A DNA stretch of 64,000 bases. Origin: Hydrogenovibrio halophilus DSM 15072 (GTDB taxonomy: Bacteria; Pseudomonadota; Gammaproteobacteria; Thiomicrospirales; Thiomicrospiraceae). The stretch lies in NCBI RefSeq assembly GCF_000384235.1, contig NZ_KB913033.1, positions 1 through 64,000 on the forward strand. Reading direction: 5' to 3'. The translations under genes were made by a program, and so were the position numbers. Position 1 is the first letter of the stretch. Each line of letters begins with the position of its first letter. Positions 29,358-40,459 of the stretch are shown here, piece after piece. Below the pieces are notes generated by a model. That model was not told where the DNA came from. It made no database searches and worked only from the letters and a program-made list of their open reading frames with translations.

Positions 29358-31487
29358 CTAAGCCCGTTTTTTCCAGACCGTCACTTGCGACAGGGTGTGC
29401 TGGAATCGACGTGCGGTTTCGCGAATCACAAAAGGCAGATCCTGCGGTGCGCCCACCGGATCAAACTCCGTCTCCAGAATCGCGTGCAAGCCTTCCAGGG
29501 TGGTGACGTTTTCCCCCGAGGCCGCATCCTTGTAGCCGCCCAGCCAGTGCGCCTTGTCGGTAAAGGCTTCCGACCAGGTGTAAGGCGATCCGATCACCAA
29601 CAGGCCATTGGGATTCATGCGTGAGCCGATTTCGTTCAGGAACTTGGCTGGCTCGTACATGCGGTCAATCAGGTTCATGGCCACCACCAGATCGTAACCG
29701 TTGAAAATCGGTTTCAGATTGGCCGCATCCTGCTGCAGAAACTCGCAACGATCGGCGTTTTCTGACAGGCCCAGTTCTTCCAGAACCCGTTCTTTGAATG
29801 CCATGATTTCCCCTTCCCTGGGGATGGTATAAAGCAGGTGGCCCCGGTTTTGCATTTCGATGGCTTTTTGAATGAAACGCGCCGAAAAGTCCAGACCGGT
29901 GACACGGTCAAAGTGTCTGGCCAGCTCAAAACAACCGCGCCCCACCGAACAGCCGACTTCCAGCACGTTCAAATCACTGCGGCCACTCAGGTCATCGTCC
30001 CGTTGGGCCGCATTCACGGCCAGTTGTGCATAGGCTTTGGGGAAATTATCGACATCAAAATAACGATCGCCATAATGGAATTCGCAATATTGCGCGACCT
30101 GAGTGTCGGTCTCATAGGTGGAAAATTCGGTCTGTACCGGCGCATCGGAGGCAATGTAGCGAAAACCGGCATGTTGGAAAAAATGGCGGCGAAACGCGTA
30201 ACGCGAATGGCCGTTGATTTCATTGCCGGTCGAAATCCAGCAGCCGCCTTTGAACAGGTTGTGTTCGTTGTCAAAAGTCGGCGTGGTGAAATCGTCATAC
30301 AAGGGATGCACCTCAAAACCTTCGTACGGATACATCGGCGTGAGCGTCCATTGCCAGACATTGCCCACCACATCGTAAAAACCGTCGGTTTCAAATTGAT
30401 CCACCGGGGTTGAAGACGCGTATTGCTGCAAGTTCAGGTTCGCTTTGTGCTGATGCGCCAGCGCATTGGTTTCATCGCGCAAACGCACATACTCGTCTTC
30501 GCTGGGCAGACGAATCGGCTTGCCGGTTTTTTCCGCTTTCCAGTTGCAGAAGGCCTCGGCTTCGTGAAAGTTGACTTCCACCGGCCAGTTCCAGGGCATG
30601 GGAATTTCGCGGGTCATGCATCGCAGGTGCCAGTCGTCGGCCTTTTTCACCCAAAAGGTCGGATGCTTGTCCGGAGTGAATTCACGCCAACGGTTGCCTT
30701 CTTGCGACCAGAACCGGCCCTGTTCATAGCCGCCATCTTCGACAAAAGCCAGAAATTCCTGGTTGGAGGTCAGAAATCTGGCGGCCTGAAACCCAGACAC
30801 GTCCGCCTGATGAAAACCGTATTCGTTGTCCCAACCGTAAGTCTCAGCGGGGTCGTGATGATCGATTTTGACCAGGCCTGGTGAAATCGGCAACAGCGTA
30901 TTCTCGGGGGCTTCGCCATGATGCGGACACACCGGAAACAGCTCGTGGTCCCTGACCGAACTCAGTGGCAGCTGGCGAATCAGCACCGAAGAGGTTTCGA
31001 TGTGGATTCGCTCATGCTCGATCCCCATCATCACTGGCCACATCGGGCTTTGCCAGTCGATGGGCATCGAAAAAGGCACGCGATCGATCAAATCATTGAC
31101 CGCCTGTCTGACTTGGGCGCGGTAGGTACGGACCTCTTCCACGCTCGGCCAATCATAATGGGCCTCATTCAAGTCATCCCACGACATCTCATCCACACCG
31201 ATCGCGCACATGGACTCAATCTCCGGATTGATACGCTCAGGCAGGAGCCCGGCCAGCACCAGTTTATTGGTGAAAAAGGTGGCGGTGTGACCAAAATAGA
31301 AAATCAACGGATGGCGCAAAGAACAGGGGCGCTGAAAAAAGACGTCATCCGAAACCAGGGTGTCAAACAGGGTTTCGTAAGCTTCCCAGGTTTCATTGAA
31401 ATAGGTTTTGATTTCGGCCCGTTTGGCCTCGACTTCGCCCCGGGTCAGGATCACCGGTTTGGAAATGAGTTGCTGTGGCGATAGCAT
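29358..31487 (-). CDS. ovoA: 5-histidylcysteine sulfoxide synthase / mercaptohistidine methyltransferase
   Basis: 709 aa, three-domain OvoA of the ovothiol pathway. An N-terminal DinB-like domain with GIEHERIHIETSS gives the H-x3-H-x-E iron site. A central FGE-sulfatase-like domain follows (PSEDEYVRLRDE, GNVWQWTLTPMYPYEGF, FKGGCWISTGNE). A C-terminal SAM methyltransferase has VLEVGCSVGRGCFELA. The family length is about 700 aa. The start is the ATG with AGAGG upstream; a further in-frame ATG at 31508 precedes that ribosome site. Ovothiol A is a redox thiol that would help against peroxide stress during sulfur oxidation. Contains a palindrome copy read as SPGLVK. Confidence 0.93.
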   Translation of the reverse strand: MLSPQQLISKPVILTRGEVEAKRAEIKTYFNETWEAYETLFDTLVSDDVFFQRPCSLRHPLIFYFGHTATFFTNKLVLAGLLPERINPEIESMCAIGVDEMSWDDLNEAHYDWPSVEEVRTYRAQVRQAVNDLIDRVPFSMPIDWQSPMWPVMMGIEHERIHIETSSVLIRQLPLSSVRDHELFPVCPHHGEAPENTLLPISPGLVKIDHHDPAETYGWDNEYGFHQADVSGFQAARFLTSNQEFLAFVEDGGYEQGRFWSQEGNRWREFTPDKHPTFWVKKADDWHLRCMTREIPMPWNWPVEVNFHEAEAFCNWKAEKTGKPIRLPSEDEYVRLRDETNALAHQHKANLNLQQYASSTPVDQFETDGFYDVVGNVWQWTLTPMYPYEGFEVHPLYDDFTTPTFDNEHNLFKGGCWISTGNEINGHSRYAFRRHFFQHAGFRYIASDAPVQTEFSTYETDTQVAQYCEFHYGDRYFDVDNFPKAYAQLAVNAAQRDDDLSGRSDLNVLEVGCSVGRGCFELARHFDRVTGLDFSARFIQKAIEMQNRGHLLYTIPREGEIMAFKERVLEELGLSENADRCEFLQQDAANLKPIFNGYDLVVAMNLIDRMYEPAKFLNEIGSRMNPNGLLVIGSPYTWSEAFTDKAHWLGGYKDAASGENVTTLEGLHAILETEFDPVGAPQDLPFVIRETARRFQHTLSQVTVWKKRA
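30871..30882. repeat. ACCAGGCCTGGT palindrome, exact copy 8
   Basis: In ovoA, read SPGLVK. Flanks GATTTTG and GAAATC. Confidence 0.9.
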
Positions 31488-31583
31488 AAAGGAACCTCTT
31501 CTGTTCATTTTTATGCCAATTGTATAGCATACGTATAATAAATTCCCGGCTTTTTGAACGGGGTTCGGCCGCGTCAGGGACGA

Positions 31584-34500
31584 TCAAAGCCCAAGCAGAA
31601 CCCCGGTTTTATCAAGCGCTCGCTCTTGCGGCTGACACAACGTCATATTGCCGGCAGACACCCCCTCTGTTTTCATCAAATAGGTTTCCACCTGCTCCTG
31701 CCGCCTTTTGGCCAGTTGCATCAATTTCTGTTCCAGCGCTTCGCCGCTCAGATTTTTCTGCGTCCAATAGGCGCGGTCCGTCTCAGTGAAGTAACCACAG
31801 ACGTTCAACAACAAGTCAGACTGTTTTTGCACCACCTCGGCCACCTGCCCCAGATATTGGCGCATGGCCTCACTCAAGCCGGGCTTGCCGGGTTCGAACA
31901 CCACCGGCTCGAAGGTGATGGCCGTGGCTTTGTCAAAGGCGTATTTCGCCGCCAGATAGATGGCGCCATAGGGTTGGAGCGTCAATGTCAACATGGTTTT
32001 GGTACCACTGCGGACCGCTTTGAACAAAGCGGTCTGAATCACGCTGTTCAGACGAAATTCGGGGCTGTCCAAACGTCCATGGATAGGCATGTTCAACTCG
32101 ACCCGGTTATTTTTGTCTTTTAACAAATTCAAACCGACTTTTATGCTGCTGAATCCCGAAATGCTCTCAGCCGATCCCATCTGAAAACCGTTCAAACGCA
32201 GCGTGTTCTTGGATTCCAGTTCGGCCTTCTGAATACGGCCTTCGGATTCCATGGACAAACGGCCGCGTTGCACCGGCAACCCCAGACCTTGTTTGATCAA
32301 CGGAGAATAAGGATACAAATCCAGGTCATTGAATTCAAACTGGTAACGGGTTTCTTGCAGTGGCGCCAGCAACGTCATCTCAGACGTGCCATCAAACAAT
32401 GCCTGTTCATTCAGTTTGCCGGAGAGGGCAATGGCCGTGGTGAGGTCGGGATGCGCCTGATCAACAGGCCCCACACTGATCCGGTCAAAACGGGCTTTCG
32501 TTGGGATGGGTGAGCCATCCACCCAATGACGGAGCGTGACGTTCAGATCGATGACCTTTGCCCCTTCGGCCCTCCATGACAGGGTCTCTGACGAGGACTG
32601 CGATCCATCAGTGGCTTCGGCGTTTTCAGGCTCTCCCCCCTTTTCTGAAGAAGGGGACAGACCCAACAAAGGCCGCAAGCCGCGCCACTGCGCCAACTGA
32701 TTACCTTCGTGAAGATCCAGCGTCACTTTTCCACCTTTTAGCGTCGCGGTCTCTGTCCGAATCTGCCGGGTCTGATCGGCCTGATGGAATTCGGCCTTTG
32801 GCAATGAAAAGGCGTTAAGCGTCAACCAGGTCTCAAGCTTGTCGGTATTTTGGGCGGCATCGGGGTTTTTCAGTGCCGAAAGGCTGAGTGCCTGCGCCTC
32901 GATTTGCGCCAACGATCCCTTCAGGCTGGAAGCGGTTTCGCCCAAGGAGAATTCAATGTCGTAATCCGAAGCAAGGCTGTCCAGGCTGGCCCAGACAGGC
33001 CCCGTTTCGGCTGAGGCATCGTCTGTCTGCAATCGGGCCGCCTCCATCACACTGGCCAGTGTCAGGCGAGTCATCGACAAATGCCCGTTTGAGATAATAG
33101 GTGATGGCGCCGACTGGTCGGTGGCAAAACCGCCCGAAACCCGGCCTTGCCAGTGTAGTTGTTCGAACTGCGGCTGAAACGTCGCCGCCAGTGCGGAAAA
33201 GCGGGTCACCGTGGCGTCACCCTGAGCCTGCCATTGGCCGCCCGCTTCGGGGTCGGTTTCATTCGGCGCCAGACCCATCCTGCCCTGCCAGTTCAAACGT
33301 TTGAGAGCAACCTGCGAAGACGACGGGTCCGTGAAAGCCAACCCGTCCAACTGCAGCGTTTGCTCCGAATCGAGCTGTGGTTGTTCTGTCCCCAGACTGG
33401 CTGAGGCCTGGCCTTCCCAGCGCACCCCTTTCAGATCCAGTGTCAATGGGGCTTGGCTGGCCTCCACCCCAGAAAGGTCGATGCGAGTCTGATCGATTTC
33501 CAGCGACACAGCATCCGCTTCCCGACTTGCCAGCGAAAGTTGCCCTTCATAATCCATTGCATCCCAGCGCAGCTTCTGACCCGGATCCGACTGTAGATCG
33601 CCCTGTTTGATCTCAAGCCGATGGTCGGCATGGAACTGCCATGACAGAGCCGAAGACGAAGCATCCGCGTCCGTCTGCCAGCTGCCCTGCCAGTTTAAAC
33701 TGCGCCACGCCAGTGTTTGCGAGGCACGCTTCGCCATGCCTTCTCGCAAGGACAGTTGCCCCTTGCCTGTGATCTGTGGTTGGGCACTGTCCAAAATGGT
33801 TTCGATTTTTCCCGACCAGTTCAACCGATCCAGGGTCAAAAGCAGCGGCTGGGCGATAAGGCTGTCCGAAGCGAGCCGAAGTTGACCCAGTGTCAGATCG
33901 CCATCCCAGTCAAATGACTGCGAGGCTCTCTGCCACGCAAAGTGCCCATCGGCACTGACCAGCCCTTCCAGCGTTGAGACATCGGGCGAGAGAAAGCCTT
34001 GCCAGAGTGACAGGTCCAGACCGGACAGATCCAGTGTGCCTGACACAGCGGGCAGGGTTGCAAAAGGCGTGGCGACCAGTTCCAGACTGATATCCGCGTC
34101 CGATGCCTGAGCTTGCGTCAGGCTCGCGTCCATCGTCAAACGGGCAGCGGAATCGGGCGTCCAGGTTTGCAGGCCGCTCAAGTCAATCTGATGCAGATGA
34201 AAAGTTCTGGAAGCGGACTCCGTGTTTATGGTCACACGCAAGCGATCGATGTCCAGATTTTGCACTCCCAGTCCCCACTGGCTGAAAAAAGACGCCGCTT
34301 TCTCGCCCGGAGCTGGCTCTGCCTCAGCGTCTTTTTCCGCAATGGGCACGCCCGCGACACGCACCAGCCGGGAAGCAGAACCCAGCTCAATCACCAGCTC
34401 CGCATTTTGCAGACGCAATCGTTGCAAAAGCCAGTTTTTATCCCACAGATCGCCCCAACTCAGATCCATATGCAAGCGTTCAAACGACAGGGAAGGCGTT

Positions 34501-34718
34501 TCGTCGGTTGTCACAGACAAACCCGAAACCGTAACCCGACCATCCCACCAGGCCAATGCCACCTGCTCGATGGCCACCTTGGCCTGCGTCTGCTGCTGCA
34601 GCTTCCAGATCATGGCATGCTTGAGCGCCCAAGGAGCCAATGCCCAAAGCAGCACCAGCACGGCCAGGCCGAGCAGCCAGCCGCGTTGTTTGTTGATTAT
34701 TTGCCAAAGATGGCTCAT
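31584..34718 (-). CDS. DUF748 (AsmA-like) envelope protein
   Basis: 1044 aa. A single N-terminal TM helix (GWLLGLAVLVLLWALAPWAL) is followed by a very long beta-rich periplasmic region with repeated 'W-x-G-x-L' units, as in DUF748/AsmA-like bridge proteins that span the periplasm and move phospholipids. The last 170 residues (FEPVVFEPGKPGLSEAMRQ, then LLNVCGYFTETDRAYW) match the DUF748 C terminus, which is OmpA-like. The acidic, Asp/Glu/Ser-rich low-complexity composition is typical. No partner gene adjoins it. Confidence 0.85.
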   Translation of the reverse strand: MSHLWQIINKQRGWLLGLAVLVLLWALAPWALKHAMIWKLQQQTQAKVAIEQVALAWWDGRVTVSGLSVTTDETPSLSFERLHMDLSWGDLWDKNWLLQRLRLQNAELVIELGSASRLVRVAGVPIAEKDAEAEPAPGEKAASFFSQWGLGVQNLDIDRLRVTINTESASRTFHLHQIDLSGLQTWTPDSAARLTMDASLTQAQASDADISLELVATPFATLPAVSGTLDLSGLDLSLWQGFLSPDVSTLEGLVSADGHFAWQRASQSFDWDGDLTLGQLRLASDSLIAQPLLLTLDRLNWSGKIETILDSAQPQITGKGQLSLREGMAKRASQTLAWRSLNWQGSWQTDADASSSALSWQFHADHRLEIKQGDLQSDPGQKLRWDAMDYEGQLSLASREADAVSLEIDQTRIDLSGVEASQAPLTLDLKGVRWEGQASASLGTEQPQLDSEQTLQLDGLAFTDPSSSQVALKRLNWQGRMGLAPNETDPEAGGQWQAQGDATVTRFSALAATFQPQFEQLHWQGRVSGGFATDQSAPSPIISNGHLSMTRLTLASVMEAARLQTDDASAETGPVWASLDSLASDYDIEFSLGETASSLKGSLAQIEAQALSLSALKNPDAAQNTDKLETWLTLNAFSLPKAEFHQADQTRQIRTETATLKGGKVTLDLHEGNQLAQWRGLRPLLGLSPSSEKGGEPENAEATDGSQSSSETLSWRAEGAKVIDLNVTLRHWVDGSPIPTKARFDRISVGPVDQAHPDLTTAIALSGKLNEQALFDGTSEMTLLAPLQETRYQFEFNDLDLYPYSPLIKQGLGLPVQRGRLSMESEGRIQKAELESKNTLRLNGFQMGSAESISGFSSIKVGLNLLKDKNNRVELNMPIHGRLDSPEFRLNSVIQTALFKAVRSGTKTMLTLTLQPYGAIYLAAKYAFDKATAITFEPVVFEPGKPGLSEAMRQYLGQVAEVVQKQSDLLLNVCGYFTETDRAYWTQKNLSGEALEQKLMQLAKRRQEQVETYLMKTEGVSAGNMTLCQPQERALDKTGVLLGL

Positions 34719-34738: not shown

Positions 34739-34804
34739 TGTTTTCAGTGCTGTTTCAGTGTAATTGAGGGACGTCTTTTGCACAAAGCAAAAGACGCAAG
34801 CGGT

Positions 34805-35818
34805 TCACGGGGTGTAATAAAACTCATAATCAGCCGCCCGCCCGGACTGATCCGGCCAGGACTTCAGCAAAGTACGGGCTTTCATCGGCTGTACCGGTCG
34901 GGCGTTGTTGCCCAGATAATCCTGCAAACGTTGAAGCTGGCTGACCGACGCCTCAAGCGGCTGGTCAAACACCATCCAGTAAACCCCTTCATCGCAAGGC
35001 GGGTGGGTCAAGGAACCGTGATATTTGTAGAATTTGCGCGCGCCGGGAATGAAATTGGCCGGTGGCAATTTGACCGATTGGTTGACCTTTTCCTGATTGA
35101 TCTCACCGGGCAAATTCTCCAACACAGTGGCCAGATGCTCATGTTCGTCGCCTTCACGGAACAGAACGGCCACCACCACATGGTTGCCTTCCCCGTCCTT
35201 GTGCACCAGTTGCAATTCTGCCGGATAGGCAAAACCGTCTTTGTGATGCTCCGAAGGCGTGTGGAATTCGTAATGAGTCAGTTCATAACGCCGATTCTGC
35301 AGACGAATATAACTGCCCACCGGAATATTGACCTTGAGGCGTTTGCCATCAAATTCGGTTTTCAACACGGTTTCGCGGTAATGAATGTCAAACCCGGGCA
35401 ACCCGGTGGTCCCAACCGCTCCCTGCCGTTTGATGTCGATGGGCGACTGAGCCTGGCCCGAGCCACACAGGGCATAAGCCTCTGACAGTTCGGCCCAATG
35501 GCGCGGTGCCTTGTCATCATGGTAGCCCCATTCCGGCGGGGCCTCGTTTTCGGCGTTTTTCTGATCCTGGTCTGCATCCCCGTTTTTGCCATCGTTGGGC
35601 ATGCCGCCCTTGTCCACCTCAGGCTGGTCTCGCGAAGGGTCATTTTCATCGCCACGCTCTTCGCCCTGGCTCTGCCCTTGCGCCTCGGCGCCAAGGTTCA
35701 GCAGCGACTCTTCGGCCGCGACCCCACCCGAAAACCCGAGCAGGCCGACCAGACTCAGAGCCAGCCAGTCAGATCGAGCAGATCGATAAACAGATAACCG
35801 TGTCCAACTCAACGTCAT
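34805..35818 (-). CDS. Alpha-carbonic-anhydrase-like exported protein with altered zinc site
   Basis: 337 aa. A signal peptide (to about residue 35) is followed by a 60-residue acidic linker (Asp/Glu/Gln-rich), then a full alpha-CA fold: QAQSPIDIK, HYEFHTPSEHH, AELQLVH and LTHPPCDEGVYW. In active alpha-CAs the first two blocks of the metal site read x-F-H-x-H and A-E-x-H-x-V-H. Here the first ligand is Glu (codon 35267-35269) and the third is Gln (35210-35212); only the middle His remains. The NNGH proton-shuttle motif is replaced by EFDGKR. The fold appears intact while canonical CO2 hydration is doubtful. It may be a CA-related binding protein, or use another metal set. Confidence 0.9.
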   Translation of the reverse strand: MTLSWTRLSVYRSARSDWLALSLVGLLGFSGGVAAEESLLNLGAEAQGQSQGEERGDENDPSRDQPEVDKGGMPNDGKNGDADQDQKNAENEAPPEWGYHDDKAPRHWAELSEAYALCGSGQAQSPIDIKRQGAVGTTGLPGFDIHYRETVLKTEFDGKRLKVNIPVGSYIRLQNRRYELTHYEFHTPSEHHKDGFAYPAELQLVHKDGEGNHVVVAVLFREGDEHEHLATVLENLPGEINQEKVNQSVKLPPANFIPGARKFYKYHGSLTHPPCDEGVYWMVFDQPLEASVSQLQRLQDYLGNNARPVQPMKARTLLKSWPDQSGRAADYEFYYTP

Positions 35819-35842: not shown

Positions 35843-36793
35843 TCAGACATCCGGGTAACAGCCAGGTGCTTTTCTGGCCTGCAGAACGGCTTCAAACGCG
35901 TCCAATTCCGATTTCTGCAACGCAAACACCCCTTCGCCACCCTGTTCAAACTCGAACCAGTAAAATGGCAATTCCGGGTACGCCTGCTGCAAATAATACT
36001 GACTGACGCCCACCTCGACAATCAAGGTACCATCCTCGGTCAGATGCTGGCTGGCCTCGGCCAGAATACGCCGAGCCAGATCCAGCCCATCCTCTCCGGC
36101 CGCCAATCCCAGTGTCGGTTCCTGCTGAAATTCCGGCGGCAGATGTGCCATTTCAATCGCATCCACATAGGGCGGATTGGAAACAATCAGATCGTACTGG
36201 CGTCCGGCCAACGCCGAAAACAGGTCCGATTCGATCACGGACACCACGTCTTCCAGCTGATAACGGGCCACATTGCGCCGGGCCACGGCCAACGCCTCCG
36301 GGGATATGTCGGCCAGATCCACTTCTGCCTGGGGACAGGCCTGCAGGCTGGCGATGCCAATGCAACCGCTGCCGGTGCACAGATCCAGAATTCGTGTTAC
36401 CTGATCCGGATCGACCCAGGGTTGATAGCGCTCGGCAATCAATTCGGCAATCGGCGAGCGTGGAACCAACACCGATTCGTTGACATAAAAACGCAACCCG
36501 GCAAAGTTGGCTTCACCGATCAGATAGGCCGACGGTTCTCGGCTTTCAATCCGATGACGAAACAGATCGGTCACCTGCTGTTTTTCCTGCAGCGTGAGCC
36601 GCGCATGATAATAAGCTTCGGGCAAATCCCAGGGCAAAGCCAGGGTATGAAACACCAACAGTTTTGCTTCGGCAAACGCGTTGTCGGTGCCATGACCAAA
36701 AGACAGTTCCGCCCGTTGAAACAGGGTCGCCCCCCAGCGAATGAAATCATTGACGCTTTCCAGGGTTTCGGATTGATACAGAAAATTGGTCAT
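35843..36793 (-). CDS. prmB: 50S ribosomal protein L3 N5-glutamine methyltransferase
   Basis: 316 aa from the ATG at 36793; the open frame extends 20 codons further but into mogA. Class I SAM methyltransferase: ILDLCTGSGCIGIASL is the SAM site and VSNPPYVD is the NPPY catalytic motif for glutamine N-methylation. The N-terminal region (SVNDFIRWGATLFQRAELSF) separates PrmB from the release-factor enzyme PrmC. It begins 11 bp after mogA. Confidence 0.93.
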   Translation of the reverse strand: MTNFLYQSETLESVNDFIRWGATLFQRAELSFGHGTDNAFAEAKLLVFHTLALPWDLPEAYYHARLTLQEKQQVTDLFRHRIESREPSAYLIGEANFAGLRFYVNESVLVPRSPIAELIAERYQPWVDPDQVTRILDLCTGSGCIGIASLQACPQAEVDLADISPEALAVARRNVARYQLEDVVSVIESDLFSALAGRQYDLIVSNPPYVDAIEMAHLPPEFQQEPTLGLAAGEDGLDLARRILAEASQHLTEDGTLIVEVGVSQYYLQQAYPELPFYWFEFEQGGEGVFALQKSELDAFEAVLQARKAPGCYPDV

Positions 36794-36804
36794 AACCCGC
36801 TCAG

Positions 36805-37365
36805 TCACCCATTGTTTGGTTTTTTGGCGTGTTTGGGCCGGAAGGCTTTGCATACCCGCTCGTCGGTTTCCAGATAGGCCCCTTCGATCAGGTCAATGCA
36901 ATAAGGCACAGCCGGGAACACGGCTTCCAGACACTCGGCAATCGCCGACGGCTTGCCCGGCAGATTGATGATCAGGGAGTGGCCCCGAGTGCCCGCGATC
37001 TGGCGTGACAGGATGGCCGTGGGCACATATTGCAATGACACGGCTCGCATCTGTTCAGCAAACCCATCCAGAATTTTGTCGCAGGCGGCGGCCGTGGCTT
37101 CGGGCGTGACATCGCGTTTGGCCGGGCCTGTACCGCCAGTGGTCAGAATCAGATCGCAACCGATTTTGTCGGCCAGCTTTTTCAATGTCGATTCAATCAG
37201 TGCCTGATCGTCCGCAATCACATGCGAGTATGGCTCCCAGTCACAGGTCAACGCCTTTTGAATCCATTGTTTCATCGCCGGGCCGCCCAGATCCTCGTAT
37301 TCACCTCGGCTGGCGCGATCCGAGACAGTGACAAAGCCGATTTTCGCAACTCGGGGTTCGGTCAT
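36805..37365 (-). CDS. mogA: Molybdopterin adenylyltransferase
   Basis: 186 aa. Activates molybdopterin with ATP before molybdenum insertion. IGFVTVSDRASRGEYED at the N terminus, LILTTGGTGPAKRDVTPEAT in the centre, and INLPGKPSAI near the end are the MogA/MoaB core. The ATG at 37365 has a strong GGAGG; the longer frame to 37404 lacks one. Molybdoenzymes such as sulfite dehydrogenases are common in sulfur oxidisers, although none is encoded here. Confidence 0.93.
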   Translation of the reverse strand: MTEPRVAKIGFVTVSDRASRGEYEDLGGPAMKQWIQKALTCDWEPYSHVIADDQALIESTLKKLADKIGCDLILTTGGTGPAKRDVTPEATAAACDKILDGFAEQMRAVSLQYVPTAILSRQIAGTRGHSLIINLPGKPSAIAECLEAVFPAVPYCIDLIEGAYLETDERVCKAFRPKHAKKPNNG

Positions 37366-37623
37366 AGTGCCTCCATATAACCCGAACATTTCACAAATTT
37401 GCACCGATCTCGCTTGCCCCTTGATTCCACAAGAAATATTTTCTCAGTTGGTCGTAATCACGGATACGACGCGCCTTCGAAAATTTCCTTGTGCAAACAA
37501 GTTCCTGCGCGACCTCAGCACAAATTCATGAAACATTCGGGATAAATACCGATCATTGTAACGAGACCGCCCCGCCTTTGCTCGGTTTTTTCCATCCCCC
37601 TCTCCTCAATCCCCCGCACGGGG
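37366..37623. other. Intergenic region between mogA and lon
   Basis: About 320 bp (37366-37687) separate the divergent mogA and lon genes. Apart from the heat-shock-type promoter at its right end, it holds a C-rich stretch (37590-37620) and AT-rich patches. I see no small gene with a ribosome site, and no tRNA or repeat. Confidence 0.5.
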
Positions 37624-37687: not shown

Positions 37688-40459
37688 ATGGCGGATCAGG
37701 ATCACAACAACCCCAACCCTGAACACAACCCGGATCAGGCAAACGATCACACGACGGACACGTCATCGGAAAACACCTACAAAAACGGTTCGGCCTACCA
37801 GCAGGAAGACATGGAAGTCGAGTTCACCGAATTTTACGATGGCATTTCCGAAGCCATCCCCGAGCTGGCGCCGGAAGACGGCTCCGGGATGTCCGACTCG
37901 GCTGACTCCGAAGAGGAAGTCCTGGACGACGACGCCATTCAAGGCGAACACATTGCCCATGACGACGAGGCAGAAGAAGCCGAAGAGATCGACACGGATG
38001 AACAGCGTGTGTTTGATCAGGGATCGTTACAGGAAGCGGCCAAAGCCATTACCAGTCTGGTTGCGGCCAACCGTTCCCGTCCGGGAAGACTGTTTCTGCT
38101 GCCGATCAAGGAGCGTCCATTTTTCCCCGGCCAGACACTGCCAATCGTCCTTGACCGCGAAGCCTGGGAAGAAACCCTGCACCAGGTCATGGACGCCGGC
38201 CAGCATTACATCGGGGTCATCTACGTGGACACCGACGACCACCACAAAGCCCTGGCCCAGGATTTTGCCAAAACCGGCACCCTGGTTCGCATCCATGACC
38301 CCAAGGTGCGCGATGACTACATCCAGCTGGTCGCCGAAGGCATCTGCCGTTTTCAGGTGGACGAATGGGTTCAGGACAAGGCCCCTTATCAGGCCTATGT
38401 GACTTACCCCAGAGACATCCGCAGCGGTCGCAACAAAGAATACAAGGCCTACGGTCTGGCGATCATGAATGCGTTCAAGGAACTGTTGCCGCTGAACCCG
38501 CTTTACAGCGAAGAACTCAAATATTTCCTCAATCGCTACAGCGCTTCCGATTCCGAACATCTGGCGGACTTTGCTGCCAGCCTGACTGCGGCCAGCAATG
38601 AAAAGCTGCAGGATCTGCTCGACACCCTTGACTTGAGCGAGCGCCTGGAAAAAGTACTGGCTCTGTTCAAGCACGAGATCGAAGTCACCAAATTGCAATT
38701 TAATATTCGCGAGCGGGTCGAAGAAAATCTGAGCCAGCAACAGCGTGAATTTTTCCTGCACCAGCAGCTCAAGGAAATTCAGAGCGAGCTGGGCATGGTC
38801 AAGGATGACCGCACGGCCGACGCTGACCTGTTCACAGAGCGCATGAAAAAACTGGTCCTGTCGGAAGAAGCTCAGGCCAAAGCCGACGAAGAACTGGACA
38901 AAATACGGATGCTCGATCCCCAGTCACCGGAATACGGTGTCGCCCGCAACTGGCTGGACTGGGTAACGCAACTGCCCTGGGGCCAATACAGCAAAGACAA
39001 ACTCAATCTGAAACGCGCCCAGAAAATTCTGGACAAAGGCCATGATGGCCTGGACGACGTCAAAGACCGGATTCTCGAATTTCTGGCCGTCGGGGCACTG
39101 AAAGGCGAAATTTCCGGCTCCATCATCTGCCTGGTCGGCCCGCCAGGGGTGGGCAAAACCTCCATCGGCAAATCCATTGCCGAAACACTGGGTCGGCAAT
39201 TTTACCGTTTTTCCGTCGGGGGCATGCGCGATGAGGCCGAAATCAAGGGCCATCGCCGCACCTACATCGGCGCCATGCCGGGCAAATTTGTGCAAGCGCT
39301 GAAAGACACCGGTCGTGCCAACCCGGTGATCATGCTCGATGAAATCGACAAAATCGGGGCCTCCTACCAGGGGGATCCGGCATCGGCCTTGCTGGAAGTG
39401 CTCGATCCCGAACAGAACCACGATTTCATGGACCACTTTCTGGACGTCCGCTTTGACCTGTCCAAAACCCTGTTTGTGTGCACGGCCAATACACTGGACA
39501 CCATCCCCGGTCCATTACTGGACCGGATGGAAGTGATCCGCTTGTCGGGTTACATCACCGAAGAAAAAATCCAGATTGCCAAACACCACCTGTGGCCGCA
39601 ATTGCTGGAAGACGCCGGGCTGACCAAAAAAGACATTCAAATCACGCCAGCCACCTTGCGCCACGTGATTGAAGGCTATGCCCGTGAAGCTGGGGTGCGC
39701 AATCTGAAAAAACAACTGGCCAAGCTGATCCGCAAGCTGGCGATTCGTTTTGTCAAAGGCGAAATGGACCACTACAGCATCCATGTCAACGATCTGGAAG
39801 AACTGCTGGGACAACCGCGCTTTACCCCGGAAAAAACCCAAGAGACGCTCGGCACTGTGACCGGACTGGCCTGGACCTCCATGGGCGGTGCCACCCTGAC
39901 CATTGAAGCTTCGCGCGTGCATACCCACAACCGCGGGTTCAAGCTCTCAGGGCAACTGGGCGATGTGATGCAGGAATCAGCCGGGATCGCTTACAGTTAC
40001 ATTTCCTCCAATCTGGACACCTTCAAAGCCGACCCGGAATTCTTTGACAAGGCCTATGTGCATTTGCATGTCCCCGATGGCGCCACACCCAAGGACGGCC
40101 CCAGTGCCGGGGTGACCATGGCCACCGCCCTGCTGTCACTGGCCCGCAACGAGCCGATCAAAACCTCACTGGCCATGACCGGAGAACTGAGTCTGACCGG
40201 GCAGGTTCTGCCGGTCGGCGGCATCCGTGAAAAAGTGATTGCGGCCCGTCGGATTGGCATCAAAACCGTGATTTTGCCGGATGAAAACCAGAAGGATTAT
40301 CACGAACTGCCGGATTACCTCAAGGAAGGCATGACCGTGCATTTCGCCAAACAATTCGAAGACGTGGCCCGGCTGACTTTTCACATTCGCAGCAAATCCA
40401 ATGCGCTGAAAAAGTACGAACAGCGATTGATCGACCAGGTGGAACAACCGAAAGACTGA
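37688..40459 (+). CDS. Lon-family ATP-dependent protease with acidic N-terminal extension
   Basis: 923 aa. The Lon substrate-binding domain starts near residue 130 (FLLPIKERPFFPGQTLPIVL). The AAA+ domain follows (GPPGVGKTSIGKSI; MLDEIDKIG), and then the Ser-Lys protease domain (PKDGPSAGVTMAT with catalytic Ser; the Lys is about 40 residues later, in GGIREKVIAARR). The first 125 residues are a disordered, strongly acidic extension absent from E. coli Lon. The RPFFPGQ signature is that of the second Lon type (AsrA-like in Pseudomonas) rather than the classical one, so the genome may carry another lon. The heat-shock promoter upstream fits. The ribosome site (GGA) is weak. Confidence 0.93.
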   Translation: MADQDHNNPNPEHNPDQANDHTTDTSSENTYKNGSAYQQEDMEVEFTEFYDGISEAIPELAPEDGSGMSDSADSEEEVLDDDAIQGEHIAHDDEAEEAEEIDTDEQRVFDQGSLQEAAKAITSLVAANRSRPGRLFLLPIKERPFFPGQTLPIVLDREAWEETLHQVMDAGQHYIGVIYVDTDDHHKALAQDFAKTGTLVRIHDPKVRDDYIQLVAEGICRFQVDEWVQDKAPYQAYVTYPRDIRSGRNKEYKAYGLAIMNAFKELLPLNPLYSEELKYFLNRYSASDSEHLADFAASLTAASNEKLQDLLDTLDLSERLEKVLALFKHEIEVTKLQFNIRERVEENLSQQQREFFLHQQLKEIQSELGMVKDDRTADADLFTERMKKLVLSEEAQAKADEELDKIRMLDPQSPEYGVARNWLDWVTQLPWGQYSKDKLNLKRAQKILDKGHDGLDDVKDRILEFLAVGALKGEISGSIICLVGPPGVGKTSIGKSIAETLGRQFYRFSVGGMRDEAEIKGHRRTYIGAMPGKFVQALKDTGRANPVIMLDEIDKIGASYQGDPASALLEVLDPEQNHDFMDHFLDVRFDLSKTLFVCTANTLDTIPGPLLDRMEVIRLSGYITEEKIQIAKHHLWPQLLEDAGLTKKDIQITPATLRHVIEGYAREAGVRNLKKQLAKLIRKLAIRFVKGEMDHYSIHVNDLEELLGQPRFTPEKTQETLGTVTGLAWTSMGGATLTIEASRVHTHNRGFKLSGQLGDVMQESAGIAYSYISSNLDTFKADPEFFDKAYVHLHVPDGATPKDGPSAGVTMATALLSLARNEPIKTSLAMTGELSLTGQVLPVGGIREKVIAARRIGIKTVILPDENQKDYHELPDYLKEGMTVHFAKQFEDVARLTFHIRSKSNALKKYEQRLIDQVEQPKD

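Follow-up and report, generated by a model that had tools for sequence, protein, structure and literature searches.

A prmC-linked alpha-carbonic anhydrase of Hydrogenovibrio with a lost zinc triad, a probable bacterial counterpart of the animal carbonic anhydrase-related proteins

What keeps a carbonic anhydrase gene in place once the residues that hold the zinc have changed? A stretch of 64,000 nucleotides from the sulfur bacterium Hydrogenovibrio halophilus DSM 15072 (hereafter the window) carries a gene for a protein with a complete alpha-carbonic anhydrase (alpha-CA) domain in which two of the three zinc-binding histidines are replaced. A first-pass annotation had read it as an alpha-CA homologue stripped of two zinc ligands in the manner of the animal CA-related proteins (CARPs), a reading that the analysis below supports. 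The features concerned are the following (CA II numbers of cavity positions follow our own alignment).

34805..35818, reverse strand: alpha-CA-like protein gene, 337 aa, 24 nt downstream of prmC (ORF listing and PF00194)
35714..35818, reverse strand: putative signal peptide spanning about the first 35 residues, with cleavage close to VAA/EE (sequence by eye)
35684..35707, reverse strand: N-terminal motif SLLNLGAE, residues 38-45 (usual family form PLIDLGAE)
35540..35683, reverse strand: acidic low-complexity linker, residues 46-93, with 14 D/E and 5 K/R
34853..35539, reverse strand: alpha-CA domain, residues 94-322 (PF00194 profile and 4xz5 alignment)
34808..34864, reverse strand: C-terminal tail LKSW...YEFYYTP, residues 319-337
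35342..35344, reverse strand: Lys159 in place of the proton-shuttle His64 (NNGH becomes FDGK)
35273..35275, reverse strand: His182 in place of Gln92
35267..35269, reverse strand: Glu184 (GAA) in place of zinc ligand His94 (codon and 4xz5 alignment)
35261..35263, reverse strand: His186, the retained zinc ligand His96 (codon and 4xz5 alignment)
35210..35212, reverse strand: Gln203 (CAA) in place of zinc ligand His119 (codon and 4xz5 alignment)
35843..36853, reverse strand: prmC, conserved upstream neighbour
36805..37404, reverse strand: moaB-like gene, conserved neighbour
37688..40459, forward strand: lon, conserved neighbour

Active-site residues of the window protein

Rechecking the sequence reproduced the open reading frame, its strand and the positions of both altered codons as first annotated. 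The PF00194 profile matches the protein with 124.7 bits (cut-off 27) over positions 2-252 of 254, that is, as a complete domain, and the best solved relative, PDB entry 4xz5 (presumably from Thiomicrospira crunogena; phmmer E 2.7e-96), aligns to residues 94-325 with zero gaps across 232 residues. The register of the ligand columns is therefore not in doubt; alignment with a characterised relative, which the annotation had proposed as a check, confirms the change of the first zinc His to Glu and of the third to Gln, and misalignment as the cause of the apparent loss is ruled out. The same holds for sequencing error, the same state being found in Thiomicrospira sp. WB1 (domain 83.6% identical to that of the window) and triads being lost in 15 other genomes. 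An AlphaFold prediction made with the window and WB1 proteins as the only input had a pLDDT of 35.

Among 36 orthologs with an intact triad (see below), the columns of His94 and His119 hold His codons exclusively. The window protein has Glu, His and Gln where an alpha-CA enzyme has three zinc histidines, and Lys159 where the enzyme has its proton-shuttle His64, the loss of which had also been noted at first pass. Both cysteines, Glu106 (Glu190, in PSEH), Glu117 and Thr199 (Thr271, in LTHPP) are retained, as the annotation had largely said, and with them the gatekeeper pair Glu106 and Thr199; in WB1, unlike the window, position 199 is Ala. The annotation had also considered that the first His of HYEFH might replace a lost ligand. 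This appears to be without support, as that residue, His182, aligns gap-free with Gln92, a column that is Gln in 36/36 intact orthologs, and His92 is present also in R-R-Q and V-R-Q orthologs, whose site retains no His. In an excerpt of PMC2873310, a CARP is an alpha-CA domain without at least one zinc His; the window protein has lost two of the three. Since it fails the triad test, we do not file it as a working alpha-CA: it is best grouped with the CARPs by kind and is an alpha-CA ortholog by descent, presumably free of zinc and inactive.

Triad loss among the prmC-linked orthologs

The family was sampled in 62 Thiomicrospiraceae genomes, that of the window included, 57 of which had a PF00194 match; 67 loci plus the window (two loci being from other families of the class) yielded 69 CA genes. 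The alpha-CA gene adjoins prmC on the same strand in 52 genomes. A further genome, G081, has the same type of gene with no prmC in its stretch and was included, bringing the set to 53 genes. Left out were G027 (a 47-aa fragment), L040 and L041 (no match to the query), a linked-type copy from G075 (a 155-aa fragment with H-H-H, prmC lying outside the stretch) and 15 alpha-CAs from other chromosomal places. Gene-by-gene maps of 20 loci showed prmC adjacent in 20/20, lon present in 20/20 and moaB in 19/20. The intact prmC-linked alpha-CAs have the same domain, neighbours and N-terminal motif as the window gene and differ by H-H-H and His64; that of G008 is 57.8% identical to the window protein.

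The triad is missing in 17 of the 53 genes, across three genera: 4/11 in g1 (the window's genus), 5/30 in g3 and 8/8 in g6, against 0/1 in g4 and 0/3 in g7. Genus g6 is probably Thiomicrospira, given that 8/9 g6 genomes lack CsoSCA, as an excerpt of PMC9164163 reports for that genus. Written in the order 94-96-119, the altered triads are E-H-Q (window, WB1, G002, G009, G065), G-H-Q (G055), S-H-Q (G057), A-H-Q (G071, G079), T-H-Q (G026), T-H-H (G019), R-R-Q (G030, G032, G080), V-R-Q (G081) and Q-K-Q (G022, G082), so that 10/17 end as x-H-Q. His94 is replaced by eight different residues. His119, where lost, has become Gln in 16/16 cases (CAA or CAG for CAT/CAC), which are not independent and correspond by parsimony to 8 changes in the column on a 52-row tree. 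Gln makes up 2 of the 8 non-silent outcomes of single-base changes in a His codon, and equal chance does not easily explain the uniformity. Glu117 is the hydrogen-bond partner of His119; it is unchanged in 17/17 losers, as are Glu106 and both cysteines. Loosening extends beyond the ligands: 22 domain positions reach 95% conservation or more among the 36 intact proteins but fall below 70% in 16 inactive ones, 11 of them in or beside the cavity (61, 63, 64, 67, 92, 94, 96, 121, 143, 198, 200) and the other 11 elsewhere. A DNA pattern for an otherwise normal motif whose codon at position 94 does not start with C, and hence is not His, was run against 369 genomes of the class and had the window as its single match; its His version found 31 sites in 30 genomes, two of them in this family. 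Altered flanks and codons for Gln, Arg (CGN), Leu (CTN) or Pro escape the pattern, so that these counts speak of rarity, not absence.

Gln as the sole replacement of His119 invites the suggestion that Glu94, His96 and Gln119, possibly with His92, still bind a metal and make the protein a slow CA or give it a new metal-dependent activity. Such a site would also fit the presence of His92 in several losing lineages and the separate origins of E-H-Q: one in the window pair, another in G065 and perhaps a third in G002 and G009. We consider it unlikely, since the G-, S-, A- and T-H-Q, R-R-Q, V-R-Q and Q-K-Q proteins have no metal site in common and the window protein is also altered at the equivalents of Asn61, Asn62, His64, Gln67, Gln92 and Thr200. 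The eta-CA of Plasmodium is active with His-His-Gln ligands; it has in common with the window protein the Gln at the third position, but it retains the first two histidines, the first of which is lost here.

Constraint and shared sequence in the inactive proteins

None of the 17 inactive genes has a stop codon in the matched frame. For eight inactive pairs, NG86 dN/dS was 0.080, 0.022, 0.024, 0.041, 0.041, 0.068, 0.153 and in one case undefined, values which are rough, dS being about 1 or above in most pairs; the window and WB1 have a dN of 0.114 and a dS of 1.43, near saturation, and here too the protein is held under constraint. By comparison, 7 of 12 intact pairs gave 0.005-0.048 (the other 5 being undefined) and the mixed pair G056-G065 gave 0.085. 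PrmC of the same pairs gives values of the same order, except for G057-G079, where the CA evolves much faster. The inactive members thus look partly relaxed and far from neutral. Pseudogenes in the strict sense are ruled out by the stop-free frames, the dN/dS values and the retained motif, Cys and Glu residues. That these proteins are relics on the way to loss, persisting just because decay is recent, is quite unlikely on the same grounds (dN/dS of 0.02-0.15 in 7/8 pairs; motif, Cys pair, Glu106 and Glu117 in 17/17), even though one g6 genome (G015) is without any alpha-CA match, some inactive members are long-branched and the G057-G079 pair, at 0.15, has a much slower PrmC.

The pattern.[LI][ILVM][DN]L..E lies near the mature N-terminus in 53/53 prmC-linked members, intact or not, with Leu42 and Glu45 present in 52/52 members measured, and is absent by eye from 15/15 alpha-CAs at other places. 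A motif common to intact and inactive proteins and missing elsewhere argues for a job that is independent of zinc and older than the losses; the protein probably has a second, non-enzymatic function, as far as its sequence can tell. A motif search of the window's own genome gave no match with a pattern that demanded Pro, which could not match the window gene either. At the other end, the last residue is Tyr or Phe in 50/53 members (36/36 intact, 14/17 inactive), the exceptions being G081 and the two proteins with a YYTP end, those of the window and WB1.

The linker had been flagged as unusually long and acidic. Having such a linker is nothing special, for one of between 27 and 62 residues occurs in each of the 52 prmC-linked members measured; its charge does stand out, a net of -9 in 48 residues being the lowest per residue, tied with two others. 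An excerpt of PMC6609565 describes animal CARPs that raise MCT1 transport non-catalytically and suggests a proton-antenna role. By analogy, an acidic linker would suit a role of that type, though in several inactive members the net charge of the linker is positive. In inactive members, prmC and the CA gene lie closer together (Mann-Whitney p 0.0027 over 52 genes, kinship ignored), a difference driven by g6 plus the window pair.

Zinc-site loss arose several separate times at one chromosomal place. On a quick-method tree built for 52 genomes from Lon, PrmC and MoaB (G081, in whose stretch no prmC was found, is absent from it and present in the 53-row counts), the lost state requires seven changes, six of them forced by starred branches; the figure of seven depends on these neighbour genes. 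With a careful method and 21 taxa, the neighbour genes reject a single clade of losers (p-AU 2.9e-6). Holding the four g1 losers together is not rejected on that tree (p 0.085), which leaves one loss or two in g1. For the CA domain itself, stripped of 14 cavity columns (53 taxa), the best tree has three changes; it needs so few because long-branched, diverged inactive members cluster. The clearest recent loss is that of G065, which pairs with the intact G056 (support 100) and has 16 derived changes, five in the cavity list, H184E and H203Q included. A single origin of the inactive protein, followed by recombination into the same place in other genera, is most improbable: the CA tree does cluster the g3 and g6 inactive members, at modest support (82-88), and an earlier 37-row CA tree, predating the inactive g3 members, did not reject one clade (p 0.44), but the 53-taxon set rejects a single clade of all 17 (p-AU 2.2e-13), does not reject g3 held together as vertical descent requires (p 0.17), and G065 and G056 have closely similar signal peptides.

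Other carbonic anhydrases and the likely role of the protein

A search for a second intact alpha-CA gene, also suggested at first pass, found none by PF00194 in the 2.36-Mb genome of the window. This genome has one beta-CA, without a signal peptide by eye, one CsoSCA and no match to the iota-type PF08332; by these searches it holds no intact exported CA of the alpha, beta, CsoSCA or PF08332 classes. Among the 17 triad losers, an additional PF00194 match is absent from 16, G079 being the exception, and the absence is less firm for G065 and G081, with assemblies 88% and 83% complete. A spare paralog is thereby ruled out as the general reading. That another CA generally takes over was likewise rejected, since beta-CA, CsoSCA and PF08332 matches show no clear pattern (the PF08332 comparison covered one g6 genome and zero inactive g3 genomes). 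In g6, 8/9 genomes lack matches to both beta-CA (PF00484) and CsoSCA, and the triad-less g6 genomes may have little CA outside the carboxysome. For the carboxysome, an excerpt of the Thiomicrospira pelophila study (PMC12628692) reports an iota-CA.

Some alpha-CAs from other loci deserve mention in their own right. The extra genes L038 and L037, in G003 and G006, encode proteins that are lipoprotein-like by eye and retain H-H-H; position 64 is Phe or Tyr in them and position 117 is Ala or Ser, which makes them another atypical class. At L099, in G023, two alpha-CA genes lie near each other, and just one of the two has the motif and tail.

We favour, as the probable explanation, a secreted, periplasmic pseudo-CA, the bacterial counterpart of a CARP, left when a bifunctional ancestor lost its zinc site and kept a docking role. 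The ancestor would have been a zinc alpha-CA with the short N-terminal motif tethered to it through a flexible linker, and would already have had a non-catalytic job, most likely docking to a fixed partner, through motif, scaffold and C-terminal tail. Once a lineage could do without periplasmic CO2 hydration, perhaps in bicarbonate-rich saline or alkaline habitats, its zinc site would have decayed where it stood and the protein would have been retained for docking. Two findings count slightly against this explanation and against the stronger version that follows: 11 of the 22 loosened positions are not cavity positions, and the window protein lacks the aromatic last residue. In that version, which is possible and can be put forward tentatively, the main job of all prmC-linked alpha-CAs is docking, through motif and tail, to a partner in the periplasm or membrane (an inorganic-carbon transporter, perhaps), and a dispensable catalysis was shed about seven times in parallel via x-H-Q, as in animal CARPs.

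The proposed pseudo-CA has several parallels. Animal CARP VIII, X and XI and the secreted cnidarian CARPs likewise have a complete alpha-CA domain missing at least one zinc His; in cnidarians, H-H-H often becomes R-H-Q and secreted forms were reinvented repeatedly (excerpts of PMC2873310 and PMC4981384). The present protein differs in being bacterial and, by prediction, exported, and in that the enzyme gene itself, rather than a spare copy, was converted in place (16/17 genomes have no further PF00194 match); the excerpts of these two papers make no mention of an N-terminal motif and linker in animal CARPs. Another parallel is the degraded CsoSCA of Thiomicrospira carboxysomes, which lost active-site residues and was kept as a protein in the same bacterial family, but which is beta-type, carboxysomal and encoded by an unrelated gene (excerpt of PMC9164163). 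A search confined to the open-access literature found no bacterial CARP in print.

Repeated zinc-site loss in the same gene at the same place, with the protein retained, amounts to a natural experiment that separates catalytic from non-catalytic function. It also bears on annotation. The 2025 study of the CO2-concentrating mechanism of T. pelophila (PMC12628692) tabulates an alpha-CA transcript, not marked as significantly changed under carbon limitation, and its excerpt contains no remark on the residues of that protein; if T. pelophila belongs to g6, as we infer, its alpha-CA should be triad-less, as in 8/8 gene-bearing g6 genomes.

The surroundings of the gene offer some minor observations. 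Between the alpha-CA-like gene and a DUF748 gene (34772-34796), two perfectly matching 10-bp arms form an inverted repeat around a 5-base loop. With up to 3 mismatches allowed, the window has no second copy of it; the repeat is possibly a terminator, although a terminator scan did not have it in its list; a promoter scan performed at about chance level (3 found, 1.7 expected). The DUF748 protein (31584-34718) is merely 23-41% identical to its counterparts in eight mapped relatives having one, at loci where Lon, PrmC and MoaB are 71-91% identical. Lon (37688-40459) has an acid-rich stretch of about 130 residues before its substrate-binding domain, which begins at residue 135. Finally, a 716-aa protein (29358-31508) resembles a fused EgtB-EgtD of ergothioneine synthesis: it combines a methyltransferase domain with DinB_2 and FGE-sulfatase domains, and its gene has an aminotransferase gene downstream.
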